Positions 1-26,763 of a stretch of 32,969 nt of DNA are shown one piece after another. A model generated the notes under the pieces. It saw only the letters and a list, made by a program, of their open reading frames with translations. It did not search any database and was not told where the DNA came from. Both the position numbers and the translations under genes were made by a program. How positions within the stretch are numbered: position 1 is the stretch's first letter; every line of letters starts with the position of its first letter. This DNA is from Gammaproteobacteria bacterium (GTDB lineage: Bacteria > Pseudomonadota > Gammaproteobacteria > Pseudomonadales > Azotimanducaceae): assembly GCA_026707045.1 (NCBI GenBank), contig JAPOXO010000116.1:1-32969 (forward strand), in the 5' to 3' direction.

Positions 1-1696
1 TTTGTGCACCATCTTTGTTATCGACCCAAACGAGCTGTTCAAGCACCGTGGCACCTAGGTCTCGTTCGAGTTCTCGCCGAATATCGTCAGAAGTCATGCA
101 CAAAATTATTGTGACGTTTTCCGCCAGCGCATTACGAATGTAGCCGCGCAGACTGTCAAGGGCAGAGAGATCGAATCCAGTAACCTTTGAAAAGTCCAAG
201 ATGACACATACGGGATGAGGATCAGATCTCAGACCCTTGTTGAGTTCGGTTGCAAGCGCAAAAGCACTTCCAAAAAAGGCGTAACCGCGCAATTGATACA
301 CCTGAGCCCGCAATCCATACACTCTCAATATGGATCGATCGGGAATGGACCTCGCCTGCGGGCTGTGCTGTTCTCGAATGCTGAAATTGGACTCCACTAG
401 AGGCACCTGACTCAGCCTGTACGCGAAAAACACGAGACTGAGGACAATACCCAAGACAATTCCTTCGAGAAAACCGACCAAGACAATAGTTGTGGCTATT
501 AGGAGCAACATGCAGTAGTCGGGGAATTGAAGACGTTGCCGGCTTCTAAACAACCATTCGCTTACGAGCAGGTAAGCAACGAACAACAAGTAGCCTGATG
601 GGGCGGGAAGCGGTACAAACCGCAACAAATCGATTCCGAAAATCAAGAACAACACCATCACAGCCGCGATCACGAGACTGTTTATGGGAGTATTCGCTTT
701 CAGAGCAATGTTGGGTATGGACAAAGTGGCAACCATGCCGCCGGGTATTCCCCCGCCTAACCCAGACGCTACGTTTGCCATCCCATGAAGTCTAAACTCG
801 GAATTCCAATCAAATTCTCTTCGTGTCGCGATTTCAAGCTGCGCATACCCCACGGCAGTGAGCACGAGTAGGACAAAAAACAGAGTGAGTGCATTCGGAA
901 TCTGTGAAACTACAGACATCCAATTGACGGCTTGTAAATGGGTTAACTCATAAAAAGGCCAGCCTCGGCTTGACCAATCCGTTGCCACGAAAAATCCAGC
1001 AGTTGTTGCATCTTCCATTGAAACTCCCAACAAGTAAAGGCACACATGGAAGACTGCGCAGAACAAAAGGAAAAGGAGCGGCATAGTCCAATATGCACCC
1101 CAGTACTTGTTTGCGATTACAAGAATTACAAACAAGAAGAGGCTGGAAAGAACCTGCGACAGTGAGACGGGATCTTGGAGCGAAGCCCAAAACTCATGGG
1201 TCCAAGAAAATCCGACAAGCTTTAACGCAAACAGAGCTATTAATAGTCCAGCACCTGTTAGTGCGCCTGCAGAAACCGAAAATGGCACAAACCTGAAGAC
1301 ATTTGCAAGTCTGAGACTTCCAATCAAGAAAAAGAGAATTCCACTCAGTGCCGCACACAAGAAAATCACAAATGCAAACGTAATAAAGAGTTCGTAGCCT
1401 GTTAAATCGAGGGATTGGGCTATCGCCACTAACACTACGACCACTGGCAGTGGAGTTGTCGCTAAGGGTGACTCGAACTTGCTAAAAAAAGCAAGGATCA
1501 CACAAAGCAATGCGGTGCCGAAGAACCAGATCTCCGTGCCACTCCGAATATACGGTTCCAGTCCGCCAGAAAAGACGATGCTGGTTACGCCAAACAGAGA
1601 GATTCCGATGCCCAAGCTCCGGACAAATCCTACCGACAATCCAGCTGTCAAATCCTCTTTCTTGAACCTAGACCATATCGAATTAGCTTCTTGCAC
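1..1696 (-). CDS. SulP/SLC26-family anion transporter with STAS domain (C-terminus off the left edge)
   Basis: The complement strand stays open for 565 codons from the window edge to a GTG at 1696-1694, which has an AGGGG ribosome site four bases upstream. An in-frame stop lies a little further upstream, and no ATG or TTG lies between, so GTG is the best start. The first two thirds are a series of hydrophobic segments. The protein opens with a charged stretch then KEDLTAGLSVGF, the usual SulP entry to TM1, followed by an IVFSGGLEPYI segment and FRFVPFSVSAG, all typical of the SulP core. The end is a STAS domain (YQLRGYAFFGSA, then VCVILDFSKVTGFDLSA). The family moves sulfate, bicarbonate or other anions across the inner membrane; the substrate cannot be told here. 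The core resembles the bacterial/fungal subgroup with an FSG motif after TM1 more than classical sulfate permeases. It is divergent from the PKS gene, and no functional link is evident. Confidence 0.88.
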   Translation of the reverse strand, partial: MQEANSIWSRFKKEDLTAGLSVGFVRSLGIGISLFGVTSIVFSGGLEPYIRSGTEIWFFGTALLCVILAFFSKFESPLATTPLPVVVVLVAIAQSLDLTGYELFITFAFVIFLCAALSGILFFLIGSLRLANVFRFVPFSVSAGALTGAGLLIALFALKLVGFSWTHEFWASLQDPVSLSQVLSSLFLFVILVIANKYWGAYWTMPLLFLLFCAVFHVCLYLLGVSMEDATTAGFFVATDWSSRGWPFYELTHLQAVNWMSVVSQIPNALTLFFVLLVLTAVGYAQLEIATRREFDWNSEFRLHGMANVASGLGGGIPGGMVATLSIPNIALKANTPINSLVIAAVMVLFLIFGIDLLRFVPLPAPSGYLLFVAYLLVSEWLFRSRQRLQFPDYCMLLLIATTIVLVGFLEGIVLGIVLSLVFFAYRLSQVPLVESNFSIREQHSPQARSIPDRSILRVYGLRAQVYQLRGYAFFGSAFALATELNKGLRSDPHPVCVILDFSKVTGFDLSALDSLRGYIRNALAENVTIILCMTSDDIRRELERDLGATVLEQLVWVDNKDGAQ

Positions 1697-1841: not shown

Positions 1842-4800
1842 TTGCCTTTAAAAGAACTTCCAAGAGTCGCCATCGTCGGCATGGCGTGTAGGTTTCCAGG
1901 CTGCCCCGATCTTCCATCCTTTTGGGAAAATCTTGTTGACGGAGTGAGTTGCACCAGCGAATGCCCGCCCGGTACCAATGAAGGTCGGGTTGGCGAGCTC
2001 TATCCAGATACGACAAAGATACCCAGTGCCTGTCGCTTCGGAGCGTTTCTAACAGACATCGATCAGTTTGATGCCGAGTTTTTCCGAATTTCTCCGTCCG
2101 AGGCGGAATTCTTGGATCCCCAACAAAGAATGATGCTCGAGACAAGCTGGCAGGCATTAGAAAATGCCAACATCGATCCAGAAAGCCTAAGGGCGAGCTC
2201 TGCATCGGTCTACGCCGGTATGAGCAACAACGATTATCGCTACTTAATACTTGGCGGTGCTGACACGTCCAAGCCGGCGGCTAGCCTCTACACGATTACA
2301 GGAACTTCACTCAACACGGCAATCGGCCGAGTTTCTTTTGCCATGGGATTTGAAGGTCCTGCGATGACGATCGATACTGCGTGTTCATCCTCGTTGGTCG
2401 CTATGCATGAAGCGGTGGGTGCACTGCAAACCGGTGAAAGTGACATCGCTCTTGCAGGCGGGGTGCAATTGATCCTCTCCGGCAAATTGACTGAAATTCG
2501 AGCAAATGCCGGCATGCTCTCGCCAGATGGCACGTGCAAGACGTTTGACGAAGCAGCAGATGGCTATGTCCGTGGAGAAGGGTGTGGAATTGTCGTGTTG
2601 AAACGACTTGAAGATGCCGAAAGAGACGGCGACCACATCTGGGCCTGTGTTGCGGCCACTGCCATTAACCAAGACGGATCTAGTGATGGACTGACAGTTC
2701 CTCGTGAACTTTCTCAGAGGTCTGTCATTGCCGCAGCAATTGACCAAGCCCAGATTCGACCTTCAGACGTCGATTACCTAGAGGCTCACGGTACCGGTAC
2801 TCCCGTCGGAGACCCCATAGAAATAAACGCAGCGGCTGAAGTCTACGGCCAGGGAAGAAACAAGCGGCAGCCCCTCCTTATTGGATCTGTGAAAACCAAT
2901 ATGGGGCACCTTGAACCTGCCGCTGGAGTTGCTGGTGTTATTAAAGTCGCATTGGCCATCAGATTCGGATTGATCCCGAAGCACCTAAACTTCAAGAATC
3001 CGAGCTCAGCGATCAACTGGGACGATTTGCCGATTCAGGTGGCCGACAAATCGACGCCTTGGCCACAGAAAGATGTTGCAGAACGTTTCGGAGGCATCAA
3101 CTCGTTCGGATTTTCGGGTACGAACGCCCATGTGATCCTACAAGGCTATGGAGAGTTTCTACCTGAAATCTCACCTAAAGAAGCATTTCAATTTGTTAAT
3201 GGGCTGCCTACAAAGGTCAGTTGCAAAGACTCAGTCCAAACGGCTCAGACTGGCGATTCCAATGAGATAGGCGTTCATAGAAAGCGAATTCTGCCGGTTT
3301 CTGGAAAATCCCACAACGCTTTGTTAGACATGTCCAAAGCTTATTTGGATTGGATACATGCAAGATCGGACAGAGAACAAGACGCAGAAGCAATAACCAA
3401 TTGCCAATTGGATGACTTGGCGTGGACAGCTAGCATCGGAAGAAGCCACTTCAATCATCGAAAAGCAGTTGTATTTGATTGTTCGCAGTCGCTTGTAGAT
3501 CAACTCGAGCAACTGACTTCGTTGGAAACGGTCGCTCCCTGTGGAAAACCTAGGAGTGTCGGATTCGTATACACGGGTCAAGGCAGTCAGTGGGTAGGAA
3601 TGGGAGAAGCACTTTACGAGACGGAACCTGTTTTCAAGTCCACAATCGATCGATGTGAAGCAATCATCCAATCGGAGCGCAATGCTTCTTTGATTGATGC
3701 CATGTTTGGCAATACTGCAGATGCCGAGCAATTGCTAGAAGATCCTAGTTGGGTACAACCGGCAATCTATACGCTGGAATGCGCACTCACTGACTTGTGG
3801 GCAAGCATCGGAGTGCAACCAATCGTTGTTGTGGGACACAGTCTTGGGGAAATTGCAGCTGCAAGAACTGCCGGTGTCTTCAGCCTTGAAGACGGGTGCC
3901 GCTTTGCGTCCGCTCGAGGACGTTTGATGAGTCAACTGCCAGGGCCCGGCCTCATGGCGGCGGTTTTTCTTCCTGAACCAGAACTCAGATCCGTAGTGGA
4001 TGCGCACAACGAAACCAACAAGGAAGTTGACATCAATATCGCCGCTCTGAACGGAACACACCAAGTCCTGAGTGGGTATCAACACCAGTTGGAGCCGCTC
4101 CTTGAACAATTGGAACAGGAAGACGTTCGCGTACGACGACTGAAGAAGAGTCCCGCATATCACAGTTCTTTGGTTGAACCCATTCTTGATGCGTTGGAGG
4201 AGGTGATCTCCAATCTTAAAGTCTCGCCTCCCCGTCTTCCCATTGTCAGTAATGTGACAGGAGAATTAGTACCTTCCGAAATGCTTCTCGACGGAAGCTA
4301 TTGGCGGCGCCACGCCAGACAAACAATCAAGTTCCGAAATGGAATAGAAACTATTGCCTCAATTGGGGTCGATGCCGTTCTAGAGGTTGGACCGGACTCA
4401 GTGTTGGGGCCGATGGCTCAGATGTCGTGGCCTGAATCGTCGGAGTCTCCAGCAATGGTTTTGTCGAGTCTTCAAATGCCCAGAGAGTCGCGACCGGAAC
4501 GACCGTTGGATGGTGGATTCATCGAATGTGTTGCACAAGCCTACGAACACGGTCTAGACATACGTTTTGAGGGACTCTTTGGAGGAGAAACCAGAAGAAA
4601 GATCAATATTCCTGGGTATGCATTTCAGCGACGAAGACATTGGGTTGAAGCCAGCAGAAGAAAGCAAGGTACTGACGATCACGAACTGTTAGGTGCTCGA
4701 CTCGAAACCCCCCGTGGAGAAGTGTTGTACGAAACTAAGCTGTTCACAACCGATCCAAATTGGTTGAACGAACACCGGGTCTTTGGGCAGGTCATTGTTC

Positions 4801-7800
4801 CTGGAGCGTTTTTCGGTTCGATGTCAATCGCTTCGAGTAGCCCAGTAGGACGAGTCGCAGTGAATGATCTGCAATTGCACAATCCGATGGTTTTCTCTGA
4901 TTCAGAAGGGGAGGAAGAGCAGGAATCTCGTCGAGTCCAACTCATTCGCGAGAAACCAAATGACAATGGCGTCTTTCCATTTGAAATATTTAGCAAGAGC
5001 TCAACAGACAACAATTGGGTACTCCACGCAACAGGTACTGTCACACCTGATTCAAGTCATACAGAATTTGAAGGCCCGCTAAATCTTGCATCGTTACAAG
5101 AGCAACTCGCTGCTAGAAACCTCAAAGAGTATTACGATGAAAAGTCGGCAACAAATATCCAACTCGGATCTCCGTTTCGCAATCTGAAAACATTACATAC
5201 CCGATCAGGGGAGGCACTTGCGGAAATAGCGATCCGTGATGAAGACGCATTGCCTGGCGCAGAGCTGCAACCTTTGTTACTCGATGCGTTTTTCCAGGTT
5301 CTATCCGCCGCAAGAGAGTCTTCTGGAATTGGGGAAGGCACGACCTATATTCCATTCGGATGGGAACAACTCACGTTAAATCTGCCGGTTCCTGAGACAA
5401 TGATTTGCCATGCACGCCTGCATGTAGAAGACTCTAAAAATGGCGAAACGACGGAACCACAAATACCGGAAACTGTAAGTGGAGATTTGTGGATTGGCAC
5501 ACGTACGGGTCGGCAGCTTGGACTGCTTCAAGGATTAGTTCTTAAACGAACCACTCGTTCGTCATTGCTCTCTGCTGTAGAGAACCCGATTGACCTTATC
5601 TACGACATTGTTTGGCGAGAAACTAGGCATCCAAATTCCATTAGGACTGAACATCCACTAGCTGAACTCTCTGACTTGGGATCTAGCGTAAACCCATTCT
5701 TCGACTACTTGAAAGCTCAAGGAGTTACACCAGACGAACGAGTGGAACTGCTCAATGATCTTGAACTCTTTGCGCAGTCCTGGGTTTCGTCAATGCTGGA
5801 TGCGGCTGGCTTGAGAACACAGGAAAATGCTGTCCTAGATATACCCAGCTTCATGTCCGCTTTGAACGTGCAAGATGCTCATGAGCAATTGTTCAATCGA
5901 ATGCTTGAAATCTTGGTTCGAGCAAAGGTACTCGATCGATCACCTACGGGTGAGTTTTCCGTGGCATTGAAAGTTGACGAACCTCTCCCTAGCCATATCG
6001 GTAATCCTGAACAAATGTTCAAAGAGCTTCAAGACAAACATCCGCACGGAATGTATGAACTCTCGATGCTCAATCGTTTTGGATCAAACATGATCAATCT
6101 CCTTCAGGGAGAGATGGACCCGCTGGCGCTTCTTTTTGACGAAGACTCGGAAGATGCTACCGACTTCTACCGTACAGCACCAGTATCGGCCGCAGGAAAT
6201 CGATTGCTGGGAAATGTCATTGCTCGGCTCGTCCAAGAAATACCGGACGACCGCCCACTTCGCGTCATAGAGGTTGGAGCAGGTACAGGTGCGACAACTG
6301 AAATTGTTTTCGAGGAACTTGGTGAGAAAAACCTCGAATACATGTACACCGACATTTCCGCTGGATTCTTCTATGCCGCAGAACAACGATTCGCCGAAAA
6401 CGCTATAGGCATTGAATACCTTGCTCTGGATATCGAAAACGATCCAATCGCTCAAGGATTCTCTCAGGGTTACTACGACATTGTCATCGCTGCCAACGTC
6501 CTGCACGCAACACGAGACTTGCAGGCCACTTTAAGCAATTGTCGCGAGCTCCTAGCACCAGGAGGATTTTTGCTGGCTCTCGAGTCTTTGAAAGGAAGAT
6601 CATGGCAAGACCTAACCTTCGGTTTTCTTGATGGATGGTGGAGATATAGCGACTCTTACCGCGTCAATCATGCTCTGGCTAGTCCTGAGATTTGGCGTGC
6701 TGCATTAAAGGATGCCGGATATGAGGATTCAATCGTTTTCGGCGGCGAGACATTGTCAGATGACACCGGTCCTCTCGGTTCGGGAACGGTCGTGGCGCAG
6801 GCACCCAAGAGTCCAATGCTTCGCCCAGGTACTTGGATCATTGAACCCGACTCCGGCGATGTTGGATCAAGAATCAAACAAACTCTTGAGTCTTTGGGGC
6901 AGGAAGTTGTAGTCACAAGCTACGAGAGTCCCTCAGAGCAAGTCTCCGTACAAAGTTCCCCGGGCACAATTGGACACAACGAGCTCCTCGCGACACTAGA
7001 TTCTCTCTCATCGCCGCTTCGAGGCGTGATTCACCTTGCCGCCTTAGACGGCCACGATATCAATGCGTCAGTGGAAGAACTTGCTCTGGACATTAAAAGC
7101 GGTACTGGCAGTGCGCTCAGTCTTGTAAAAGTCCTAATGGAGTCAGGAATTAATCCCACTAGTGGACTCTGGTTCGTGACCCGCGGGGCTCAGGTGCTAG
7201 AAACGGAGCAATCGGGGATACTCTCAGGATCCACGCTTTGGGGGTTTGGAAAAGTTGTTGGACTCGAAACTCCATATCTGAATCCGAAGGTGGTGGATCT
7301 CGATCCAATAGAGGACGACATTGATGAACTAATGAACGACCTGCTATCCCCCACCGAAGAAAACCACATTGCCTATCGAAGAAGTACTCGATATGCGGCT
7401 CGTCTCGTTTCAGCAGTGGAAGGTCCTAGCCAATTTGAGCTACCTGAAGACCCCAATTGGATAGTCGCGGCAGGAGACGAAGGATCACTTTTGGATATTG
7501 GCACAACACCTCAAACACCAATTGATCTTGAGCCTAGGCAAGTTCAAATTCAAGTTGAGGCAGCTGGAATCAACTTCTCAGATGTGCTAGTTGCTCTCGG
7601 AGCACAAGTACCCAATGCTTCTCTGGGATTGGAATTCTCTGGCTATGTCGTCGACCTCGGTTCAGATGTGGACGAGTTTTCAGTGGGCCAACGCGTCGTC
7701 GGAATGGGATTTGGGACGTTTGGACCAAAGATCACAACACATGCGGATTTGGTTGCGTTATGTCCCGATCAACTGACGTTTTCAGAACTCGCCACCATTC

Positions 7801-10800
7801 CTATCGCATTTGCGACTGCAGCAATTGGATTTGAACTTGCTAATCTCAAAAAAGGGGAACGTGTGTTAGTGCACTCTGCGGCCGGAGGAGTCGGACTTGC
7901 AGCAATTCAATTGGTACAAGCCAGAGGTGCAGAGGTTTTCGCCACGGCTAGCAAACACAAGCAATCGTATCTCCGATCCATTGGTATCACAAACGTATTC
8001 GATAGTAGAACTACGGATTTCTCTAAAGAAATTCTCGATGCCACAGATGGTCAAGGTGTCGAAGTAGTCTTGAATAGCTTGACCAGCGAAGGATTTATCG
8101 ACGCAACCCTCGAGTGCTTGGGACAAGGAGGCCGTTTTGTTGAGATTGGGCGGCTAAACATATTCACTGACGAACAAATGTCTTCTGTTCGACCGGATGT
8201 CGACTACCACATAGTTTCGCTTGACGAACTGAAGCGGGACGAACCAGAACGTGTGGGTCGTTCATTTAGGCCATTGGTCGCGGAATTTGGCACCGGAGCT
8301 CTTCGCCCGATCCGGCACTCTAATTGGCCGATTGTAGAAGCAGCGGAAGCTCTGCAATACATGGGTTCCGCTCGTCATATTGGAAAGCTAGTACTGACCA
8401 TGCCGCCCTTGGCTAGAGGAAATCTTAGAAGCGATCGAACTTTCCTAATCACAGGCGGGATGGGTGGAATTGGCTGCGCGGTTGCGGAATGGCTTGCCGA
8501 TCAAGGGGCGAAAAACATTGTGGTCAATGGCCGTCGCGAGCCTGACACCGAGGCCGAGAAGACGATCCAAGATCTACGCGCTCAAGGTATCAACGTCGTG
8601 GCGAAAATTGCCGACATCACAAACGCGTCGATGGTTGATGCAATGTTTGAAGAGATCGACAAGTCCTTACCTCCCCTTGGAGGCGTAATTCATAGTGTTG
8701 GTGTACTCTCCGATGGATCGCTTTTAAACCAAACTTGGGAGAGATTCGAGGAGGTGCTTTGGCCAAAGATCTTGGGATCCTGGCACCTGCATGAACTGAC
8801 CAAACATCGAGACTTGGATCTGTTCGTGCTGTTTTCAAGTGCAGTGAGCGTGCTTGGAAACGCGGGACAAGCCAACCACGCCGCAGCCAACGCGTTTCTC
8901 GACCAGCTGGCCGCGCATCGACGAGCACTTGGTCTTGCTGGTCAATCCATAGCCTGGGGAGCTTGGTCCGATATTGGCGAAGCGGCCGAACAAAGAGCAA
9001 GAATCGCAACGCAATTGGAATCTTCCGGTACGCAATGGATTTCTCCCGAATTGGGCATTAGGACTCTCGAGTACTTGATTAGGCAGGATCGTAGAAACTC
9101 GGCCGCAATGTCGGTTGACTGGGCAGCCTTGGAAGACCATCTTCCAAATCGCCCTCCACTGCTGCAGGAATTGCTGTCTGTCGATGCGGAAAGTAGCAGC
9201 GCCGACTCAGACGCGTTGAATCTCGACATTGACGCACTTCTTGAATGCGAACCTCAAGAACGAGAGAGCCTGCTCGTCTCCTATGTGCAGAAACAGCTTC
9301 AATCCATATTGCGACTTCAATCGCTTCCATCGCCCAGCGTCGGATTTTTCGATCTTGGAATGGATTCCTTGATGGCAGTTGAATTGCGCAACCGATTGAA
9401 TCGTACTTTCGAAGGAGGATTGACAGTATCGCAAACGGCAGTATTCGACCACCCCGATGTCGAGTCCCTTGCAAAACACCTCGCAGACGAATTCGACAGC
9501 GATTCTTCTGACGCAAAGAGTCTCGAGCAATCATCGAGAAAAATCTCTTCAGCCGAAAGTGCCTCGATTGCAGTCATAGGAATCGCTTGCAGACTTCCTG
9601 ACGCTAACGACTATTCAACCTTTTGGAGCAATCTAGCAAATGGAGTCGATTCCCTTGCAGCAGAGAGAAACTCCAACACCATAGCAGATGGGATAGTCGG
9701 AGCAGGCTCGGCAGGCAAATTAGAGAATGTACGATGTGGATTTATAGACGGAATTGAGGAGTTTGATGCGCCATTCTTCAGAATAAGACCGATCGAAGCA
9801 CGGTCAATGGACCCCCGACAACGAATGCTATTGGAGACCTGTTGGGAAGCAATTGAAGATGCGGGAATCGATCCTTCAGGGTTGCGAGGTTCGCGCGTAG
9901 GCATCTACATCGGAATGGGTGCCAGCGAATATCGCGATGTCGTTAATGCGAACGGCGTTCAGGACAATTACATCGGCACTTCCTCCGCAATGACGACCGG
10001 CAGGATTTCCTACATTCTCGGATTGACTGGTCCTGCCGTTTCCTTTGATCTTGCCTGTGCGTCGTCGCTCGTGTCGATTCACGAAGGCATTAAGGCGTTG
10101 CAGAATGGTGAGGTGGATTTGGCCTTAGTAGGTGGGGCCAATGCACTTCTCTCCATGCCGATGATGCGATTCCATAGAGAACTCGGATTGCTCTCTCCCA
10201 CTGGAAAATGCATTCCATTCGATCAAAATGGTGACGGCTACGTCCGAGGCGAAGGATGTGGAGTCTTGCTTCTTAAACGGCTTGAAGAAGCACAAAGCGA
10301 TGGCGATCCAGTTTGGTCCACTTTGCTTGGTTCTGCCGTCAACCAGAACGGACCAAGCGCAGGACTCACCGTTCCCAATGGATCTGCTCAAGAGCAAGTC
10401 ATGCGTGATGCATTGGCACGTGCAGGAGTTCCAGCCGCCTCCATAGATTACTTGGAGGCGCATGCCAATGGATTGCCGTTGAGCGACCCCATCGAACTTC
10501 GGGCAGCTTCCTCCGTGTACACATCAGGATCCGAAAGGGGCGATCCTTTGATACTTGGATCAGTCAAAAGCAACGTGGGACATCTGGAGTGGGCTGCTGG
10601 TTCGATCGGTGTAATCAAAGTGATCCTCTCGATGAGAAACGGAAAGATTCCGCCTCAGTTACACCTAGATCATCTCAACGAGCAAGTCGACTGGACAGAC
10701 CTCAAATTGGATCCTGTGCGGACAGTCATGGACTGGCCCACCAAGAACGAATCAAGAATCGGCGCTGTGAGTGCTTTTGGGATGTCAGGAACGAACGCTC

Positions 10801-12053
10801 ACGTACTCGTTGAATCAAACATGGCTGCATCGGACAATGATGCGGCGATTTCGTACGGGCAAGCGAAGCAGGTGGAGATTGATGAAATCAACACGGAGAT
10901 TTCTCAAGAACTTACCGAGGTAGATCTTCAGGAAGTGCGACGAACGTATCGGCTGTTGCCATTGTCAGGCAAGAGCTTCGCAAGCACTGCGGAACTAGCA
11001 GGCAAGTACATCACTTGGTTGAAGACTTGTGCCCCACAGAATGGGAGCGAAGAAACCATTTCCGAATTCCTTGCCGATGTTGCTTGGACCGCTAGCGTAG
11101 GCAGAAGCCATTTTGGTTCCCGACGTGGCGTAGTGTTTTCAGACTTGGACTCTCTGCTCGAAGAACTTGAGAAATTAGTCGAGAATCCTCCCTCAGAAGA
11201 AAACGGTGAGGTGGAGCAAGGCTCTAATGTTGGATTCATCTTCGGAGGTGGTATTGAGAACTCTTTCAATATTTTAAGACGACTCTCCGAACAAGATCCC
11301 GTTGTCAAAGCCACTCTCGACAGATGCAACCGAATTTCTCGAGAGATTCACAATATTGATTTGCTTGAATCGTTACTTCTGAAGGACGCAGGCGAAGATT
11401 TAGACACAACTTCATGCAGCATCTCAACTTTTGTTCTTCAGGTGGCTTTGTTCGAGATTTGGAGTTGCCTGGAAATTCGCCCAACTCTCATCGCAAGCGA
11501 AGGAATTGGCTTGTTCTCGGCACTTTGTTGCGTCGGTTCTTTGGAATTTGCAGACGGTCTAGATGCCGTTCGAAACTTTGCCACTCACGATGGCAAATTG
11601 CCAAGAGATAAAGTGCCCGCCAAGGTTCGCGCACCAGCGGTACCAATATTCGATTTTCAAACAAACTCTCTCACTTCTACGAGTACTGAAATCGAGCTGC
11701 TACTCACGGGTCTGAATCCAGTGAACTTTGGTACCTTGAAGTTCGATGGGTTGAAAGAAGTGGGTGCGGACAATCTTGTAGAAATTGGTTCTTGCGTCAA
11801 AACACTGGACGATTTCGATCCAGACAGTCAAGAATCCGATTCAAGACCTAGAGTAATTGCTCGCAATGCAGCAGGTGGCGGTTCACAGTCTGTGAATCTC
11901 GCATCGGACCAAACACTGATGTACACAATTAAAGATGCCTATGAAGCACAACTAAATCTACAGCTTCGTGGACTCTTTGTGGGAGAGACTAGGAGAAGAC
12001 TAACTTTGCCGACCTATGCCTTTCAACGAAGAAAGTACTGGTTTAACGATTGA
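1842..12053 (+). CDS. Type I polyketide synthase, KS-AT-DH-MT-psiKR-ER-KR-ACP-KS-(degenerate AT)
   Basis: A cytosolic 3,403-residue megasynthase. KS1 (about 8-435) has C181 in DTACSSS, H316 in EAHGTGT and H356 in NMGHLE. AT1 (574-870) has S667 in GHSLGE and H774 in PAYHSS, nearer the malonyl-type HAFH motif than methylmalonyl YASH. DH (945-1240) has H978 and D1148. A C-methyltransferase (core 1400-1630) shows EVGAGTG at 1477. A structural psiKR (1655-1870), an ER (1885-2185, HSAAGGVG) and a KR (2196-2385, TGGMGGIG, S2333, N2350, but His2346 in place of the catalytic Tyr) follow. ACP has S2509 in GMDSL. KS2 (2575-2990) keeps C2739, H2874 and H2914. The final AT-like part (3130-3403) lacks the active Ser and about 90 residues. 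There is no thioesterase. The first module has the layout of fungal highly reducing PKS and of bacterial synthases proposed to make methyl-branched fatty acids; the product is unknown. The start is TTG with AGAGG upstream. Confidence 0.95.
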   Translation: MPLKELPRVAIVGMACRFPGCPDLPSFWENLVDGVSCTSECPPGTNEGRVGELYPDTTKIPSACRFGAFLTDIDQFDAEFFRISPSEAEFLDPQQRMMLETSWQALENANIDPESLRASSASVYAGMSNNDYRYLILGGADTSKPAASLYTITGTSLNTAIGRVSFAMGFEGPAMTIDTACSSSLVAMHEAVGALQTGESDIALAGGVQLILSGKLTEIRANAGMLSPDGTCKTFDEAADGYVRGEGCGIVVLKRLEDAERDGDHIWACVAATAINQDGSSDGLTVPRELSQRSVIAAAIDQAQIRPSDVDYLEAHGTGTPVGDPIEINAAAEVYGQGRNKRQPLLIGSVKTNMGHLEPAAGVAGVIKVALAIRFGLIPKHLNFKNPSSAINWDDLPIQVADKSTPWPQKDVAERFGGINSFGFSGTNAHVILQGYGEFLPEISPKEAFQFVNGLPTKVSCKDSVQTAQTGDSNEIGVHRKRILPVSGKSHNALLDMSKAYLDWIHARSDREQDAEAITNCQLDDLAWTASIGRSHFNHRKAVVFDCSQSLVDQLEQLTSLETVAPCGKPRSVGFVYTGQGSQWVGMGEALYETEPVFKSTIDRCEAIIQSERNASLIDAMFGNTADAEQLLEDPSWVQPAIYTLECALTDLWASIGVQPIVVVGHSLGEIAAARTAGVFSLEDGCRFASARGRLMSQLPGPGLMAAVFLPEPELRSVVDAHNETNKEVDINIAALNGTHQVLSGYQHQLEPLLEQLEQEDVRVRRLKKSPAYHSSLVEPILDALEEVISNLKVSPPRLPIVSNVTGELVPSEMLLDGSYWRRHARQTIKFRNGIETIASIGVDAVLEVGPDSVLGPMAQMSWPESSESPAMVLSSLQMPRESRPERPLDGGFIECVAQAYEHGLDIRFEGLFGGETRRKINIPGYAFQRRRHWVEASRRKQGTDDHELLGARLETPRGEVLYETKLFTTDPNWLNEHRVFGQVIVPGAFFGSMSIASSSPVGRVAVNDLQLHNPMVFSDSEGEEEQESRRVQLIREKPNDNGVFPFEIFSKSSTDNNWVLHATGTVTPDSSHTEFEGPLNLASLQEQLAARNLKEYYDEKSATNIQLGSPFRNLKTLHTRSGEALAEIAIRDEDALPGAELQPLLLDAFFQVLSAARESSGIGEGTTYIPFGWEQLTLNLPVPETMICHARLHVEDSKNGETTEPQIPETVSGDLWIGTRTGRQLGLLQGLVLKRTTRSSLLSAVENPIDLIYDIVWRETRHPNSIRTEHPLAELSDLGSSVNPFFDYLKAQGVTPDERVELLNDLELFAQSWVSSMLDAAGLRTQENAVLDIPSFMSALNVQDAHEQLFNRMLEILVRAKVLDRSPTGEFSVALKVDEPLPSHIGNPEQMFKELQDKHPHGMYELSMLNRFGSNMINLLQGEMDPLALLFDEDSEDATDFYRTAPVSAAGNRLLGNVIARLVQEIPDDRPLRVIEVGAGTGATTEIVFEELGEKNLEYMYTDISAGFFYAAEQRFAENAIGIEYLALDIENDPIAQGFSQGYYDIVIAANVLHATRDLQATLSNCRELLAPGGFLLALESLKGRSWQDLTFGFLDGWWRYSDSYRVNHALASPEIWRAALKDAGYEDSIVFGGETLSDDTGPLGSGTVVAQAPKSPMLRPGTWIIEPDSGDVGSRIKQTLESLGQEVVVTSYESPSEQVSVQSSPGTIGHNELLATLDSLSSPLRGVIHLAALDGHDINASVEELALDIKSGTGSALSLVKVLMESGINPTSGLWFVTRGAQVLETEQSGILSGSTLWGFGKVVGLETPYLNPKVVDLDPIEDDIDELMNDLLSPTEENHIAYRRSTRYAARLVSAVEGPSQFELPEDPNWIVAAGDEGSLLDIGTTPQTPIDLEPRQVQIQVEAAGINFSDVLVALGAQVPNASLGLEFSGYVVDLGSDVDEFSVGQRVVGMGFGTFGPKITTHADLVALCPDQLTFSELATIPIAFATAAIGFELANLKKGERVLVHSAAGGVGLAAIQLVQARGAEVFATASKHKQSYLRSIGITNVFDSRTTDFSKEILDATDGQGVEVVLNSLTSEGFIDATLECLGQGGRFVEIGRLNIFTDEQMSSVRPDVDYHIVSLDELKRDEPERVGRSFRPLVAEFGTGALRPIRHSNWPIVEAAEALQYMGSARHIGKLVLTMPPLARGNLRSDRTFLITGGMGGIGCAVAEWLADQGAKNIVVNGRREPDTEAEKTIQDLRAQGINVVAKIADITNASMVDAMFEEIDKSLPPLGGVIHSVGVLSDGSLLNQTWERFEEVLWPKILGSWHLHELTKHRDLDLFVLFSSAVSVLGNAGQANHAAANAFLDQLAAHRRALGLAGQSIAWGAWSDIGEAAEQRARIATQLESSGTQWISPELGIRTLEYLIRQDRRNSAAMSVDWAALEDHLPNRPPLLQELLSVDAESSSADSDALNLDIDALLECEPQERESLLVSYVQKQLQSILRLQSLPSPSVGFFDLGMDSLMAVELRNRLNRTFEGGLTVSQTAVFDHPDVESLAKHLADEFDSDSSDAKSLEQSSRKISSAESASIAVIGIACRLPDANDYSTFWSNLANGVDSLAAERNSNTIADGIVGAGSAGKLENVRCGFIDGIEEFDAPFFRIRPIEARSMDPRQRMLLETCWEAIEDAGIDPSGLRGSRVGIYIGMGASEYRDVVNANGVQDNYIGTSSAMTTGRISYILGLTGPAVSFDLACASSLVSIHEGIKALQNGEVDLALVGGANALLSMPMMRFHRELGLLSPTGKCIPFDQNGDGYVRGEGCGVLLLKRLEEAQSDGDPVWSTLLGSAVNQNGPSAGLTVPNGSAQEQVMRDALARAGVPAASIDYLEAHANGLPLSDPIELRAASSVYTSGSERGDPLILGSVKSNVGHLEWAAGSIGVIKVILSMRNGKIPPQLHLDHLNEQVDWTDLKLDPVRTVMDWPTKNESRIGAVSAFGMSGTNAHVLVESNMAASDNDAAISYGQAKQVEIDEINTEISQELTEVDLQEVRRTYRLLPLSGKSFASTAELAGKYITWLKTCAPQNGSEETISEFLADVAWTASVGRSHFGSRRGVVFSDLDSLLEELEKLVENPPSEENGEVEQGSNVGFIFGGGIENSFNILRRLSEQDPVVKATLDRCNRISREIHNIDLLESLLLKDAGEDLDTTSCSISTFVLQVALFEIWSCLEIRPTLIASEGIGLFSALCCVGSLEFADGLDAVRNFATHDGKLPRDKVPAKVRAPAVPIFDFQTNSLTSTSTEIELLLTGLNPVNFGTLKFDGLKEVGADNLVEIGSCVKTLDDFDPDSQESDSRPRVIARNAAGGGSQSVNLASDQTLMYTIKDAYEAQLNLQLRGLFVGETRRRLTLPTYAFQRRKYWFND

Positions 12054-12058: not shown

Positions 12059-12988
12059 TTAGGTATTCAAGACTTCCTTGACGAAGTTTCTTACATAGTC
12101 GGCACACTCATGAGGCCTTTCGATCTGAAGGTAATGAGAAGAGTCAGGAATGAAGTCATAGTCCACCGATAGAACATCGGAAAAGTCCACCGTCGGCATG
12201 TAGGAGAATGGTAGAAGCGGGTCAGATCCTATGACCTTGGTCTTGCAAGGAAGCGTTCCTATGTCCACTTCACCAGCAAAGGCTCGGCAAGACTCGATTA
12301 TCTTCACCTGGTAGTCGCGCGGACATCTCAATTCATAACCCGTTCCATCCTTGGATTTTCTGAGGGTTGTCTCAGCTATGAGCTCTCGTGCGCCCGGTAC
12401 CAGACGAGAAAACCCGGGAGACCACGTCAATAGATCAACGAACTGTTCAAGTGACTCGAACGACGTTGCAATTCTTCTTCGTCTCTTAGCTGCCACTTCC
12501 ATTGCTTCATCGTGATCTTCATGGCTTTGGCCTGGCTGGTAAAAAGGTGGATCAAACAACAACATTCCATCGAGATTTGAGCTCTTTCTCGACAAAGAGG
12601 TCGAAATGAACGAAGATGAATGTAGCAAGACGGCCACCATAGCACTCACGGAGTGAAAGACGCCCACGAGTGGCTTTTCCCCATGCACCTCGTTGATGGT
12701 GTGGACAATGCGATCAAAATCGCTGACAAACAAGACAAAGTTGTGATTGGATTCATCGCAAACGTCATTCCAACCATGACTTCTCATATCAAAAATGAAC
12801 AGATCGAAATCTTGCTCCAGCAGTGACCAAAACGGGTAGTAGAGATCAATGGCCAAGGAGTTGCCATGACTCAATAGAAGTCGGACTCCAGCGGGATTTC
12901 CATGTCGTCGCAAGAAAACGCGTGATCCGTCCTCACACACGATCTCGTCCACCGAGATGGGGTCTGGAATTTGCCACAGCTTGTTCAT
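12059..12988 (-). CDS. Alpha/beta-hydrolase, candidate PKS release enzyme
   Basis: A 309-residue single-domain alpha/beta-hydrolase without a signal peptide. HGNS at 41-44 fits the oxyanion-hole turn, FDMRSHG (66-72) is the usual strand after it, and the nucleophile is probably S113 in FHSVSA, a departure from the common GHSMGG elbow. D256 (IGSDPLLP) and H285 (DSSHYLQ) would complete the triad. Its stop lies five bases from the PKS stop on the opposite strand, and it starts 28 bases after the phosphopantetheinyl transferase stop, so the two form an operon convergent to the PKS. The PKS has no thioesterase, so hydrolytic or transesterifying chain release is an attractive role, but this comes from context only. 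The ribosome site is weak (GAGTGA), which may mean coupling to the upstream gene. Confidence 0.85.
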   Translation of the reverse strand: MNKLWQIPDPISVDEIVCEDGSRVFLRRHGNPAGVRLLLSHGNSLAIDLYYPFWSLLEQDFDLFIFDMRSHGWNDVCDESNHNFVLFVSDFDRIVHTINEVHGEKPLVGVFHSVSAMVAVLLHSSSFISTSLSRKSSNLDGMLLFDPPFYQPGQSHEDHDEAMEVAAKRRRRIATSFESLEQFVDLLTWSPGFSRLVPGARELIAETTLRKSKDGTGYELRCPRDYQVKIIESCRAFAGEVDIGTLPCKTKVIGSDPLLPFSYMPTVDFSDVLSVDYDFIPDSSHYLQIERPHECADYVRNFVKEVLNT

Positions 12989-13016: not shown

Positions 13017-13712
13017 CTAGTCTAGAACTTCCTTGGCAATTGCCGCAGCAAAGGAATCATTCTCCAAGTTTACTAGCACCCACTTTTGTCCAGTTTCTAA
13101 AGGGTATACGAACTCGCTCCTACGTCCACCTTTTACCAATTCATCAGGTAGGGAGAATAACGACGTGTCGGCACGAAATCCTTCTCCTGTAGCTTTGATG
13201 ATTGCTTCCTTATGTGTCCAGAGGCGAAAAAACATGCCGCACTTTTGAGCAGCGCAAACACGGTCGAGAGCTCGTTGTTCCCTTGGCGAAAACACTTCGC
13301 GAATGGGTCCGTCCATGTCGTGACGCATTTTCCGATCTTCTACGTCTGCGCCAATTCTGGCTGCACTACTAAATGCTATTAGTCCATTTTCGAAAGAGTG
13401 ACTGACGCTAAAGTCTCCTCTGGTCTGCGCTCCATTCACGAAAGCAATCGGTTTTTCCTGGCGCATAAAGCTAAAGTGCAATGCCTCGTTCGAGCAACCA
13501 TGAATGTTGCACAGGTTTTCTCGGAGTGCGGCTCGGCACATCACGAATCTTCTTCTTGCATCTTCCGAATGAAATTTGCGAAATCGTGCCCTTTCCCCAG
13601 CATCTAGCCATTGGTATGCGTCTGCTTCGTACTTCGCTCGTTTGGACAGATCAATATGTACGACTGACACCTGCTCTACTACAGCAAATTCCCTCCACCA
13701 AGGACTTCTCAT
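13017..13712 (-). CDS. Sfp-type 4'-phosphopantetheinyl transferase
   Basis: At 231 residues this is the usual size for the Sfp/Gsp family, which moves phosphopantetheine from coenzyme A to the serine of carrier proteins. The key motifs are present in order: FSVSH at 101-105, GADVED at 121-126 (D123 and E125 as Mg ligands) and WTHKEAIIK at 165-173 (K168, E169, K173). It lies beside a PKS with one integral ACP and close to a free ACP gene, so it very likely arms both. It is first in a two-gene operon with the hydrolase. The ATG at 13712 has no clear ribosome site; a GTG twelve codons in (V13, before SVVHIDL) is an alternative and would remove a stretch not conserved in the family. Confidence 0.93.
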   Translation of the reverse strand: MRSPWWREFAVVEQVSVVHIDLSKRAKYEADAYQWLDAGERARFRKFHSEDARRRFVMCRAALRENLCNIHGCSNEALHFSFMRQEKPIAFVNGAQTRGDFSVSHSFENGLIAFSSAARIGADVEDRKMRHDMDGPIREVFSPREQRALDRVCAAQKCGMFFRLWTHKEAIIKATGEGFRADTSLFSLPDELVKGGRRSEFVYPLETGQKWVLVNLENDSFAAAIAKEVLD

Positions 13713-14051: not shown

Positions 14052-14273
14052 ATGTCGTCGACAAAAGACCGTGTGGGGACTCTAGCCCGCAAATTCTTGG
14101 ATGAAAACGCAGAACCTGACTTCGCGAAGTCATTCGATGAAGCTGAAGTATCGTCATTGGATGCGATGGCGTTCCTTAAAGCTATAACGAGTGAATTCAA
14201 TGTCGAAATCTCACCTGAGAAACTCTCAGAAATGTCCAATCTTCAGGATATCGTCGACTTTTTGGACGGCTAA
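14052..14273 (+). CDS. Free-standing acyl carrier protein
   Basis: A 73-residue acidic protein with the ACP fold pattern: a first helix (RVGTLARKFLDEN), a loop, the modification site EVSSLDAMAFL, then VEISPEKLSEMSNLQDIVDFL for helices III and IV. The phosphopantetheine serine would be S35; the usual DSL is SSL here, so the Asp before the Ser is missing although an Asp follows at 37. AGGA lies seven bases before the ATG (AAAAAGGAAAATTC). It is transcribed alone, divergent from the transferase, and two hairpins follow it. The PKS ends with a KS and AT remnant but no second ACP, so this protein may be the missing partner in trans. It could also be a starter carrier or serve an unrelated pathway. 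Confidence 0.85.
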   Translation: MSSTKDRVGTLARKFLDENAEPDFAKSFDEAEVSSLDAMAFLKAITSEFNVEISPEKLSEMSNLQDIVDFLDG

Positions 14274-14673: not shown

Positions 14674-16479
14674 ATGAGAATTCTCTCAACATGGTTGACA
14701 CTGTTCACTCTCGCATGCGCGTCGAATGTCCTAGCAGGACCTGAAGACATTTACAAAGAGAGGTGTGCAGCGTGTCACGATGAGCCGGCGGACGCGAAGA
14801 CCCCGCATCGGAGCGCAATCGGCGGAATGGGCAAGTCGCGTATTCAGTATTCGCTTACTTCGGGAAGTATGGCAATCCACACATCGGGATTGACTCCCGA
14901 CATGATTGCAGATATTGCATCTCATCTTGACACTACCCATGAACAGTCCATCGATGCGTCTCAAGAGTGTCCCGATCGTCCTATTTCTACGGACGTGGTT
15001 GTTTCGCACTGGGGCGTGGATCTTCAAAACACTCGGTACCAGCCCAATAGCTCAATTGACAGTTCCAACATCTCCAATTTAAAGCTCAAGTATGCGTTTG
15101 GAATTCCAGACTCCTGGGAAGTCCGATCTTGGCCGGCCCTATCCGCGGATACGATTTTTCTTCCGTCTACCAATGGGACGCTTTATGCCATCGATCGAGA
15201 CATAGGCTGTATCAAGTGGACATACAAGTCAGATCGACCTCTCCGAACATCCGCTCATCTAATAAACACCGAACAAGGTCTCCAAGTTGCCGTCGGAGAT
15301 TTCGGCGCGAGAACTCATCTTGTAGACGCAACGACCGGTGAACCCATTTGGGTCCAACACGTAGGAGATTCTCCATTGAATATGAACACCGGGGCACCGG
15401 TGTTTTTTGATGACGACTGGTACATACCAGTATCTGCATTTGAAATTGCGGCGGCCATGAATCCACGACACGAGTGCTGCAAGTCACACGGCATCGTAAA
15501 GCGATTGAACGCGTCTACAGGAGAAGTGGCTTGGTCCACGCCAATGACTCCTCCCGCATTGCCAACCAGAAAAAATGACAGTGGCACGCAAATGTATGGC
15601 CCATCTGGAGCTCCTGTTTGGACGACACCAGCTATTGACGACAAACGAGGCGTGCTTTACATCGGAACGGGAGAAAACACATCCAGACCAGCAACGTACA
15701 AGTCGGATGCAATTGTTGCCTTGAGCCTCGTAACCGGTGAAGTGGCTTCATTTTTCCAAGGTTACAAAGACGACGCGTTCAATATGGCTTGCGGATCTCG
15801 GAATCCACAGAATTGTCCCGAAGATCAAGGACCAGACTTTGATTTCGGAGCGTCTCCAATCTTGGTTACTACCGAATCGGGACGCGACCTCGTCTTGGCG
15901 GGCCAAAAGTCAGGAGACGTGTGGGCACTTGATCCTGACAACGATTTGGAACTGGTCTGGCAAAACAAACTTTCAAACGGTAGTGCGCTAGGCGGGATTC
16001 ATTGGGGTATGACGGTGGTGCAAAACACACTGTTCGTGCCCATCGCTGACCCCGAGTTCATGACTCGCGATCCCAAACCCGGCGTTTATGCAATTGACAT
16101 CGACTCTGGCGAGACTGTTTGGGAGCATAAGGTAGAACGAGAGTGCGAGATTGATTTCGGAGCAATGCGAAATCGAGCCATTCGATGGCCAGAGTGTCCG
16201 TGGCATTATGGATTTTCTGCAGCAGCTAGTTCAACAAACGACTTGGTCTTCGCTGGTTCGCTCAATGGTGAAGTGAGTGCATTCAATGCCGAAGACGGCC
16301 GTGTAGTGTGGAGTTACAACACAAAGAAAGAGTTCGAATCGGTCAACGGTATTGAGTCGCATGGAGGCGCTATTGACAATCCGGGTATTGTCATAGCCGG
16401 CGATCAACTGATTGTGTTGTCTGGCTATGGCATGTTTGGGCAAATGCCTGGTAATGTCATGTTGGTTTTCGAACTTTAG
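14674..16479 (+). CDS. Periplasmic quinohemoprotein dehydrogenase, polyvinyl-alcohol dehydrogenase-like
   Basis: A 601-residue exported protein. A signal peptide ends near NVLA|GPED (about residue 21), a cytochrome c domain with CAACH at 31-35 follows, then a PQQ beta-propeller of about 480 residues. The propeller blades show the family repeat of the type GTLYAIDRDIG..W, repeated as GVYAIDIDSGETVW and GEVSAFNAEDGRVVW. A vicinal cysteine pair (C268-C269 in HECCKSHG) matches the Cys-Cys seen in PQQ dehydrogenases. The order of cytochrome first and propeller second is that of polyvinyl-alcohol dehydrogenase (cytochrome), which oxidises secondary alcohols and passes electrons to the respiratory chain. 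The real substrate is unknown and polyvinyl alcohol need not be it. The ATG has GGA close upstream. An ankyrin gene begins 19 bases after the stop. Confidence 0.85.
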   Translation: MRILSTWLTLFTLACASNVLAGPEDIYKERCAACHDEPADAKTPHRSAIGGMGKSRIQYSLTSGSMAIHTSGLTPDMIADIASHLDTTHEQSIDASQECPDRPISTDVVVSHWGVDLQNTRYQPNSSIDSSNISNLKLKYAFGIPDSWEVRSWPALSADTIFLPSTNGTLYAIDRDIGCIKWTYKSDRPLRTSAHLINTEQGLQVAVGDFGARTHLVDATTGEPIWVQHVGDSPLNMNTGAPVFFDDDWYIPVSAFEIAAAMNPRHECCKSHGIVKRLNASTGEVAWSTPMTPPALPTRKNDSGTQMYGPSGAPVWTTPAIDDKRGVLYIGTGENTSRPATYKSDAIVALSLVTGEVASFFQGYKDDAFNMACGSRNPQNCPEDQGPDFDFGASPILVTTESGRDLVLAGQKSGDVWALDPDNDLELVWQNKLSNGSALGGIHWGMTVVQNTLFVPIADPEFMTRDPKPGVYAIDIDSGETVWEHKVERECEIDFGAMRNRAIRWPECPWHYGFSAAASSTNDLVFAGSLNGEVSAFNAEDGRVVWSYNTKKEFESVNGIESHGGAIDNPGIVIAGDQLIVLSGYGMFGQMPGNVMLVFEL

Positions 16480-16498
16480 CTCATTTCTCTGCATCTCA

Positions 16499-17407
16499 AT
16501 GGACTATCGAGGTCTTGGTCGGCGCGCTGCGCGAAGTGCTCTTGTAGACGCTGTGCTTGCGCAAGATGAACGGCTTGTCGTTCGCATAGTTGCCGAAAGA
16601 CCCGATATTGTGGACGCACGCAACTCGCATGGCCACACAGCTTTAAGTGAAGCTGTAAAAATTGGGAATTTGGCGTTAGTCCAGCAACTTGTTGATGCAG
16701 GTGCTGATCCCAAGCAGTACAACCACGGTGGATCTTCCCTCATTGATGCGGCCGCACATTGCGGAAGTTCAGAAATTGCGGAATTCCTGAGAGAACGGGG
16801 ATGTGTAGTTACTCCCTTTCACGAAGCAGCGCTTGGATATTGCGAAGCAATTGGCCAGCGCATCAAGGATCAGCCTTCCGTTGTCAATCAAAAGTCTCCT
16901 CGAAGCGCTTCGTTGCTTCACCATGCCGCACACGGCAACCATCTAAGTGTTTGCGAATTGCTCGTTTCTTCTGGAGCAAGTGTTGAGGCGTTCGACCATC
17001 ATGGACATACGCCGCTTTGTTACGCCGTGGAAAGAAACTCAGTAGATTGTGCTCGAGTCTTGATTAGAGAAGGAGCAAATATCGATCAACCAGCCGGCTA
17101 TTTTGGTGGAACAGTATTGCACCGAGCCATCATGCTCCGACTTGTTGACATGTCGATTCTCCTTCTGGAAAGCGGCTCTGATCCAAACCTTCAAGACTTC
17201 TCTGGAAAGTCGGCGTTGCACACTTCGGTGGCAAGCGGAAAAATCGATGTTGTGAGAGCCGTGTTGCAGTCTCAAATCGACACCAATCTACGGACGAAGA
17301 AAACAAAGCTCCAGAAGGGAAACGAAACTGCGTTGGATTACGCCCGAAGGCTCAACAAGAAGCGAATCATAAACTTGCTAGAAGAGCGGCTCTCCACCAC
17401 TCCATAA
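16499..17407 (+). CDS. Ankyrin-repeat protein
   Basis: A 302-residue protein made almost wholly of ankyrin repeats, about seven, with signatures such as GHTALSEAVKIGN, ASLLHHAAHGNH, GHTPLCYAVERN, GTVLHRAIM and GKSALHTSVASGK. No signal peptide or membrane segment is seen, so it is probably a cytosolic binding protein. The frame is open upstream to 16412 inside the dehydrogenase gene, but the ATG at 16499 fits the repeat fold and leaves 19 bases after the previous stop. It has no good ribosome site, so translation may be coupled to the dehydrogenase. The partner is unknown. Ankyrin proteins next to periplasmic redox enzymes occur elsewhere (for example near catalases), but usually with signal peptides, unlike here. 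Confidence 0.85.
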   Translation: MDYRGLGRRAARSALVDAVLAQDERLVVRIVAERPDIVDARNSHGHTALSEAVKIGNLALVQQLVDAGADPKQYNHGGSSLIDAAAHCGSSEIAEFLRERGCVVTPFHEAALGYCEAIGQRIKDQPSVVNQKSPRSASLLHHAAHGNHLSVCELLVSSGASVEAFDHHGHTPLCYAVERNSVDCARVLIREGANIDQPAGYFGGTVLHRAIMLRLVDMSILLLESGSDPNLQDFSGKSALHTSVASGKIDVVRAVLQSQIDTNLRTKKTKLQKGNETALDYARRLNKKRIINLLEERLSTTP

Positions 17408-19813: not shown

Positions 19814-21091
19814 TTAGCCCGAACGTCCGTACTCCGCATCGTACTTGCGCAATTCGGCACGTCCTACAACAAGGTGGTGAACCTCATCTGGACCATCGGC
19901 AATTCGAAGCGTTCGTTGTCCGGTGTACATACGCGCCAATGGAGTCCATTGTGATACTCCTGTCGCTCCGTGGAGTTGAATCGCTTGATCGATGATTTGA
20001 CAAACACGCTCGGGAATGACCGCCTTGATCATGTGAACCCATACTCGAGCTTCTCGGTTACCCAACACATCCATAGCTTTGGCGGCTTTGAGAACCAAGA
20101 GTCGCATCATTTCGATTTCAATCCGAGCTCGAGAAACCAACTCGAGATTTTTGCCCAAGTTCACGAGCGGACGCCCAAACGCTTCTCTCGACATTCCTCT
20201 ACGGACCATCAAGTCTAATGCCCGTTCTGCTTGTCCGATGGACCTCATGCAATGGTGGATGCGTCCCGGGCCTAGGCGGCCTTGAGAAATCTCAAAGCCC
20301 CGACCTTCACCGAGAATCATGTTTTCTTTCGGCACACGAACATCTTCAAGCATGATGTGCATATGACCATGCGGGGCATCGTCATGACCGAACACAGTCA
20401 TTGGCTCGATGATGTTTACACCCGGCGTATCCAATGGAACCAATATCTGAGACTGCTGCTGGTGAGGAGCTGCATCTGGACTTGTCTTGACCATGCAGAT
20501 CATGATCTTGCAGCGTTTGTCGCCTGCGCCAGAGATGTAAAACTTTTCGCCGTTGATTACCCATTCGTCTCCCTCCAGCACAGCACGGGTACCAATCTGC
20601 TTTGCATCGGAAGATGCCAGGTTAGGTTCGGTCATGCCATAAGCGGACCTAATTTCTCCGTTCAATAGAGGTTTGAGCCATCTCTCCTTCTGCTCTGGCG
20701 ACCCATACCGTTCAAGCACCTCCATGTTTCCAGTATCAGGTGCGCTGCAGTTCAAGCACTCCGACGCGATTGGATTCTTGCCCAATTCGGTTGCAATATA
20801 GGCGTAGTCGAGATTCTTGAGCCCTTCGCCGGTGTCCGCATCTGGGAGGAAGAAATTCCAGAGACCATTTGACTTTGCCTTTGTCTTTAGGTCATTGAGA
20901 ATGCCCTCTTGTCGTGGAGACAAGCTCCAACGGTCTCCATGTTCAGCCGCAGCCTCTTCAAATTCAGGCGTTCGGGGCTGAATATCGGCATCGATAAAGC
21001 TCTTAACGGCAGCCAACAGCGGTTCTGCCTCCGCACTCATCGTCAGATTGTTAAGGTCGGCTTCAATGTCCGGTGAAATTGCTTCGGCCAT
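19814..21091 (-). CDS. Acyl-CoA dehydrogenase (ACAD10/11-like)
   Basis: A 425-residue FAD enzyme of the acyl-CoA dehydrogenase family, cytosolic, oxidising an acyl-CoA to the 2-enoyl-CoA and passing electrons to electron transfer flavoprotein. The motifs YGMTEPNLASSDA (FAD/substrate loop), INGEKFYISGAGD, GRLGPGRIHHCMR and REAFGRPL are in order. The probable base is E403 in DGPDEVHH, near the C-terminus, as in the ACAD10/11 and long-chain-type branch; in medium-chain enzymes it lies elsewhere. AGGA stands about eight bases before ATG 21091. The serine hydrolase follows on the same strand. An esterase with an acyl-CoA dehydrogenase suggests a lipid breakdown pair, but the chain type is unknown. 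Confidence 0.93.
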   Translation of the reverse strand: MAEAISPDIEADLNNLTMSAEAEPLLAAVKSFIDADIQPRTPEFEEAAAEHGDRWSLSPRQEGILNDLKTKAKSNGLWNFFLPDADTGEGLKNLDYAYIATELGKNPIASECLNCSAPDTGNMEVLERYGSPEQKERWLKPLLNGEIRSAYGMTEPNLASSDAKQIGTRAVLEGDEWVINGEKFYISGAGDKRCKIMICMVKTSPDAAPHQQQSQILVPLDTPGVNIIEPMTVFGHDDAPHGHMHIMLEDVRVPKENMILGEGRGFEISQGRLGPGRIHHCMRSIGQAERALDLMVRRGMSREAFGRPLVNLGKNLELVSRARIEIEMMRLLVLKAAKAMDVLGNREARVWVHMIKAVIPERVCQIIDQAIQLHGATGVSQWTPLARMYTGQRTLRIADGPDEVHHLVVGRAELRKYDAEYGRSG

Positions 21092-26629: not shown

Positions 26630-26763
26630 CACTGACTATCGGAATCGGGTTAGGAAAAAACGCATCTCTATTGGACGCATAGATCTTCAATTGAGTCGGA
26701 ACTCATGACATCTAACAGCCTAAATCCAAGCATGAATGGTGCGGCTACTCGAGAAAACAATTC

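Follow-up and report, generated by a model that had tools for sequence, protein, structure and literature searches.

The sup cluster probably has genes A to E, and the mycobacterial mycocerosic acid synthase (MAS) is a single fully reducing module that takes methylmalonyl-CoA. Sup (sponge symbiont ubiquitous) enzymes, as they are presented in the accessible parts of the source, are small mono-modular type I polyketide synthases (PKSs) whose proposed products are mid-chain-branched fatty acids (PMC4245539). SUP-like families are known from Proteobacteria and three other phyla, according to an excerpt of a further study (PMC9426513). One permease bears the name SupE, and a permease like it was found beside an anti-anti-sigma (STAS-type) ORF on a sponge fosmid (PMC3908369, available in part). 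The same source describes SwfA, likewise a mono-modular PKS/FAS of a sponge symbiont, with the order KS-AT-DH-ER-KR-ACP; it occurs with SwfB, and also with SwfC in two of three clusters, and the available text lists no MT or second KS for it (PMC3908369). In the portions of the literature at hand, no explanation was found of how mono-modular synthases of the sponge type release their product or hand it on. CalA3, from calcimycin, is an ACP-less chain-release module with a dead AT, in which the KS Cys, two His and a Lys are needed for amide formation; as far as the accessible text goes, it keeps inactive DH and KR domains and releases its chain onto 3-HAA (PMC10006239). TAS1 also ends with a terminal KS, and this KS releases the product; in the excerpt available, it acts on an NRPS-derived substrate with a Cys-His-Asn triad and by Dieckmann cyclisation (PMC4640141).

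The DNA analysed here, called the window, is a whole stretch of 32,969 nucleotides from a gammaproteobacterial genome that is 95% complete and consists of 143 contigs. It carries a single uninterrupted ORF (1842-12053, plus strand) for a type I synthase of 3,403 residues. The start codon is TTG, with AGAGG at 1830-1834 ahead of it. Pfam found ketoacyl-synt and Ketoacyl-synt_C twice each in the synthase and AT, DH, MT, ER, KR and ACP once each, and the domain order is KS1-AT1-DH-MT-psiKR-ER-KR-ACP1-KS2-AT2 remnant. We infer the psiKR from the MAS structure 5bp4, which holds psiKR-ER-KR and aligns to synthase residues 1724-2448. The features of the locus are as follows.

2..1696, minus strand: SulP/STAS permease, divergent from the synthase and running past the window edge (Pfam Sulfate_transp and STAS)
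1863..3146, plus strand: KS1, residues 8-435, with Cys181, His316 and His356 (Pfam)
3564..4427, plus strand: AT1, residues 575-862; Ser667 and His774 present in 25/25 proteins (Pfam, alignment)
4680..5561, plus strand: DH, residues 947-1240; His978 and Asp1148 present in 25/25 proteins (Pfam, alignment)
6264..6725, plus strand: C-methyltransferase (MT), residues about 1475-1628, with an EVGAGTG motif (Pfam)
7524..8402, plus strand: ER, residues 1895-2187 (Pfam: about 1895-2185)
8439..8972, plus strand: KR, residues 2200-2377 (Pfam)
9282..9482, plus strand: ACP1, residues 2481-2547, with Ser2509 (Pfam)
9546..10826, plus strand: KS2, internal duplicate of KS1, residues 2569-2995, with Cys2739, His2874, Lys2909 and His2914
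11217..11831, plus strand: AT2 remnant, with Gly at the nucleophile column and the catalytic-His stretch absent
11832..12050, plus strand: conserved post-AT tail, ending in YAFQRRKYWFND
12059..12988, minus strand: alpha/beta-hydrolase of 309 residues (Pfam)
13017..13712, minus strand: Sfp/HetI-like phosphopantetheinyl transferase (Pfam)
14052..14273, plus strand: discrete acyl carrier protein of 73 residues, AcpP-like, with the Ser in SSLD

An earlier note, made from the letters of the window, had described a complete reducing, C-methylating module followed by a second KS and a remnant AT. The Pfam search of the translation confirmed the module, and Pfam together with the alignment confirmed the second KS and the AT remnant behind the ACP. 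The chain does stop directly after the post-AT linker (...YAFQRRKYWFND*), and no release domain lies behind KS2 within it, both as the note had stated.

The synthase was sought with a KS2-AT2 profile in genomes sampled at the family, order, class and phylum levels within its own phylum. At E <= 1e-150, it was found in 24 of the 206 genomes of the window's GTDB family, in 4 of 37 genera, and in 12 of the 18 genomes of the window's genus. Matches above 1,000 bits were confined to the same family in the order sample (3/244 genomes) and in the phylum sample (1/398). The class sample of 369 genomes added one carrier (G976) from a second order, in which the synthase occurs in 4 of 20 genomes. The earlier note had proposed looking for the same domain order in other proteins and had allowed that the second KS-AT might be a sequencing or assembly artefact. 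Since the same order recurs in 24/206 family genomes and in 4/20 of the second order, that is, in 28 genomes across two orders, an assembly artefact is ruled out. The long proteins that were aligned numbered 25, of which the family contributed 21 and the second order four; two broken ORFs (L116 and L152) and the contig fragments of G792 stood outside it. Three genomes (G006, G708 and G805; loci L063, L116 and L152) have the synthase broken up into two, three or four ORFs, which may be pseudogenes or sequencing errors. Two related Gammaproteobacteria genomes, SB0661_bin_9 and COS2_bin_1, are presumably sponge MAGs.

As is expected of a type I mono-modular reducing PKS, the first module is complete and has intact active sites, with one exception in the KR. 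The active-site residues of KS1, AT1, DH and ACP1 are intact in the alignment. The column of the usual catalytic Tyr of the KR is His (NHAAAN) in all 25 proteins, and is Tyr in the KRs of MAS and AmphB. The dN/dS of the KR was low, at 0.02-0.12 across 16 close pairs (NG86). Among solved structures, the one nearest to the first module was MAS with 918 bits, and the fungal LovB scored 550 bits. A closest kinship with the fungal highly reducing PKSs to which the earlier note had likened the module was not borne out in this comparison, which takes in solved structures only. What sets the window synthase apart from MAS is its C-methyltransferase together with the terminal remnant of a duplicated KS-AT. 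A chain of 3,403 residues with a second KS is no plain fit to Sup enzymes, described as small and mono-modular in the accessible text (PMC4245539).

Where does the second KS come from? A KS phylogeny, which the earlier note had suggested as a check, placed KS1 and KS2 in one clade. In a quick tree of 96 rows, this clade stood apart from 69 other KS rows with an SH-aLRT of 100, and in a careful tree of 65 rows it stood apart from 35 other rows with a support of 100/100; the comparison set was made up of KSs fetched for the analysis, and closer outside kin may exist. The KS2-only clade received 100/99 and the KS1-only clade 86/66 in the careful tree (44 in the quick tree). KS1 and KS2 of the same protein share 44-62% identity (11 proteins). 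KS2 thus arose by duplication of KS1 within the synthase. A foreign second module is ruled out by the sister position of KS1 and KS2 in both trees.

KS2 has kept its catalytic residues. The Cys, the Lys and the second His are present in all 25 proteins and the first His in 24; in the KS2 of L147, the first His is replaced by Asn, as in non-condensing KSs. Across the 16 close pairs, all with an overall dS below 0.8, the NG86 dN/dS was 0.03-0.14 for KS2, 0.06-0.14 for AT1 and 0.10-0.39 for AT2. KS1 gave 0.01-0.10 in the 15 pairs for which it could be computed, and KS2 was higher in all 15. The pairs are not independent, since five near-copies (L111-L115) account for ten of the 16. KS2 is under purifying selection and is less constrained than KS1, and its dN/dS rules out a dead remnant. 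In the careful tree, the KS2 branch of the window synthase is 0.41 long versus 0.16 for KS1. Several motifs that are otherwise conserved have shifted across the KS2 clade of the family: DPQQR became DPRQR in 17 of 22 copies, another residue stands in place of the final T of HGTGT in 17 as well, and NQDG became NQNG in all 22. A structure model of KS2-AT2 (12 rows) reached a mean pLDDT of 73 and a pTM of 0.78 and matches KS-AT didomains.

The fate of AT2 was different. Pfam returned no second AT stretch on the synthase, and in a genome search the AT2 region covered only positions 18-113 of the AT profile, with 24.6 bits against a cut-off of 32.7. The distance from the nucleophile to the EIGP landmark is 51-110 residues in AT2 versus 180-181 in AT1 in all 24 readable copies (94 versus 181 in the window), the copy of L148 being cut at a contig end. 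No His-Ser motif lies between the AT2 landmarks in any of the 24. The Ser column is non-Ser in 21 of the 24, and Ser is present in L117, L202 and L203. The AT2 of L202 and L203, two proteins of the second order, begins with a part that matches their own AT1 fully or almost fully; this suggests a recent gene conversion, and the His stretch is still absent. Because this stretch is gone even there, the defect common to the AT2 copies is the deletion. Four AT2 copies are better preserved, and each of them matches an AT1 of its own family best (in L066, for example, 207 versus 113 bits). The AT2 of the window, too eroded for such an assignment, scores 45 bits to the AT1 of its own family and 49 to another AT. 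The locus shows that a KS-AT unit was duplicated within one gene and was kept after the AT had been lost.

The earlier note had found no second ACP. This holds for the polypeptide but not for the locus, where a discrete ACP gene, overlooked in the note, lies ~2 kb downstream. The solved structures nearest to this discrete ACP are AcpP proteins. Three carriers turned up in the window's genome with PF00550, namely ACP1, an AcpP-like one beside FabF, and the discrete ACP. Within the family, strong matches to the discrete ACP (E <= 1e-19 with a profile of 12 ACPs) occur in 22 of 24 synthase-bearing genomes and in none of 182 synthase-free ones (Fisher p 1.2e-27, a test that ignores kinship). In the second order, the discrete ACP is present in all four synthase-bearing genomes (95-103 bits) and in none of the 16 others (best 39.5 bits). 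In other words, a close homologue accompanies the synthase in 26 of 28 genomes of both orders and is absent from all 198 synthase-free genomes; 12 of the 26 positive genomes went into the ACP profile and 14 are independent of it. The best match in a synthase-free family genome was 46.6 bits (G030, beside a FabF-like gene) versus at least 116 bits in 21 of the 22 positives. The discrete ACP of G708 is frameshifted and gives two pieces, and it too may be a pseudogene or reflect a sequencing error. In the two negative carriers, G792 and G803, the synthase lies on contigs of 5,053 and 4,640 bases and of 10,014 bases. The stretches taken around the PKS include the discrete ACP in 17 genomes of the family and three of the second order; it is on the same contig ~8 kb off in G707, and on another contig in G704, G006, G712, G799 and G1171. 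In G007, there are two tandem discrete-ACP copies (L062, 15785-16765) with the altered motifs SSIVVVEF and PSIVVVEF.

The other neighbours were counted in the stretches around the PKS, many of which end at contig ends, with hydrolase, phosphopantetheinyl transferase and permease profiles that were each built from four loci. Of the 24 family genomes, 22 have the alpha/beta-hydrolase, as do all four of the second order; in the two exceptions (L063 and L148), the synthase sits at the end of a contig. The hydrolase residues Ser113, Asp256 and His285 are invariant in all eight aligned proteins, and we assign them as a putative catalytic triad. A phosphopantetheinyl transferase homologue was found in 16 of 24 family genomes and in none of the four of the second order. 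A SulP-type permease adjoins the synthase in the window and in half of the family genomes (12/24), and in none of the four of the second order. Because the transferase and the permease are missing from the second order, the core common to both orders consists of the synthase, the hydrolase and the discrete ACP. The SulP/STAS permease may correspond to SupE (PMC3908369, in part), and a Sup-type assignment of the synthase is plausible only by its context. Among the matches listed from the sponge PKS literature, which leave the founding sup descriptions out of reach, neither a terminal KS-AT remnant nor a discrete ACP was described. If the sup genes include a discrete ACP and SupA ends in KS-AT, less of what is described here is new.

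How might KS2 act? The earlier note had guessed that transfer, a last condensation or release happens on a partner protein. This guess gains substance from the discrete ACP and the serine hydrolase that travel with the gene; a last condensation or transfer by such a partner is only something that we infer. On the best reading, which we hold with about even confidence, KS2 and the discrete ACP form a split final module with the KS in the chain and the carrier in trans. Module 1 would act iteratively, with AT1 as its loader and SAM as the source of the methyl groups, and would build a methyl-branched acyl chain on ACP1. The finished chain would then move from ACP1 to the Cys of KS2, which is well placed to receive it because ACP1 precedes KS2 in the same chain. 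KS2 would hand the chain on, most likely through a single decarboxylative condensation for which the discrete ACP, loaded by AT1 or FabD, would supply the malonyl; AT1 and a FabD-like enzyme were the only intact ATs found in the window's genome. Finally, the hydrolase would release the chain, or downstream lipid enzymes would make use of it. The AT2 remnant and the tail would have a scaffold role only, and the loss of AT2 activity would be expected because the extender already rides on the discrete ACP. A search across the window's genome found no other type I PKS module for KS2 to feed, and the discrete ACP is the sole carrier found to track the synthase; the split final step is favoured for these reasons. 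Several observations count against it. A distance correlation over 18 genomes gave no preference for KS2: the partial r with the discrete ACP was 0.13 for KS2, 0.42 for AT1 and 0.40 for ACP1. Furthermore, KS2 is less constrained than KS1 and has the longer branch, the clade-wide motif changes and the lost His of L147. A related and rather doubtful possibility is that KS2 is an exit station from type I to type II synthesis, which would shift the C-methylated chain to the discrete ACP, where fatty acid synthase or lipid acyltransferases would continue. If true, the methyl branches would come to lie mid-chain, and this would provide a mechanism for the mid-chain-branched lipids of sponge symbionts. 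The conserved pair of a duplicated KS with a broken AT and a tracking discrete ACP is a concrete candidate for the release or hand-on step and for an origin of branched lipids.

CalA3 is a close mechanistic precedent, and release by KS2 itself is therefore the main rival, although an unlikely one. The chain would be bound to the KS2 Cys and handed over to water or to a small amine or alcohol, the role of the dead AT would be structural, and the discrete ACP would be engaged elsewhere. The window synthase has an active-looking KS, a dead AT and no ACP after the KS, and KS2-AT2 shares with CalA3, as the accessible text describes it, the combination of an ACP-less unit, a dead AT and a KS with Cys, two His and Lys (PMC10006239). 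The terminal KS of TAS1 likewise releases its product (PMC4640141, in part), and the KS2 of L147, one His short, fits such a role. However, KS2 of the window differs from CalA3 in being an internal duplicate with a co-inherited discrete ACP, and release by KS2 would leave this ACP unexplained in 26 of 28 synthase genomes. No amine-supplying gene was recognised among the four traced neighbours, and a release hydrolase is already at the locus.

The discrete ACP could instead serve in starter-unit loading. It would then bring a starter acyl unit to KS1, and KS2-AT2 would be mainly a scaffold that forms dimers or gates chain length. The ACP is AcpP-like and could therefore draw on fatty acid synthesis, the distance correlation favours AT1 and ACP1 over KS2, and the constraint on KS2 is below that on KS1. 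However, nearly all KS2 copies have the Cys, His, Lys and His, which a scaffold would not require, and the dN/dS of KS2 (0.03-0.14) is in the range of AT1 (0.06-0.14); we consider this explanation distinctly improbable. It is still harder to believe that KS2 condenses with malonyl on ACP1, so that one carrier would serve two KSs that differ in chain-length preference. ACP1 does adjoin KS2 in the chain and the intact AT1 could reload it, but a co-inherited discrete ACP would have no place in such a scheme. Hardly credible, finally, is the view of KS2-AT2 as the decaying relic of a second module that was lost. The erosion of AT2 and the splitting of the gene into several ORFs in L063, L116 and L152 would suit it, and it is largely refuted by the low dN/dS of KS2 (0.03-0.14) and by catalytic residues that were kept across two orders.

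Further genes were noted in the window and its genome. A single-chain acyl-CoA carboxylase of 1,142 residues (23204-26632, minus strand) combines biotin carboxylase, biotinyl and carboxyltransferase domains, and an acyl-CoA dehydrogenase lies at 19814-21091. Elsewhere in the same genome, a stand-alone ketosynthase of 622 residues (L004, 682-2550, minus strand) has the Cys, HGTGT and GH motifs, and we take it to resemble the FabY type. Two ankyrin-repeat ORFs of the window (16412-17407 and 31757-32968, plus strand) are possibly related to symbiosis.
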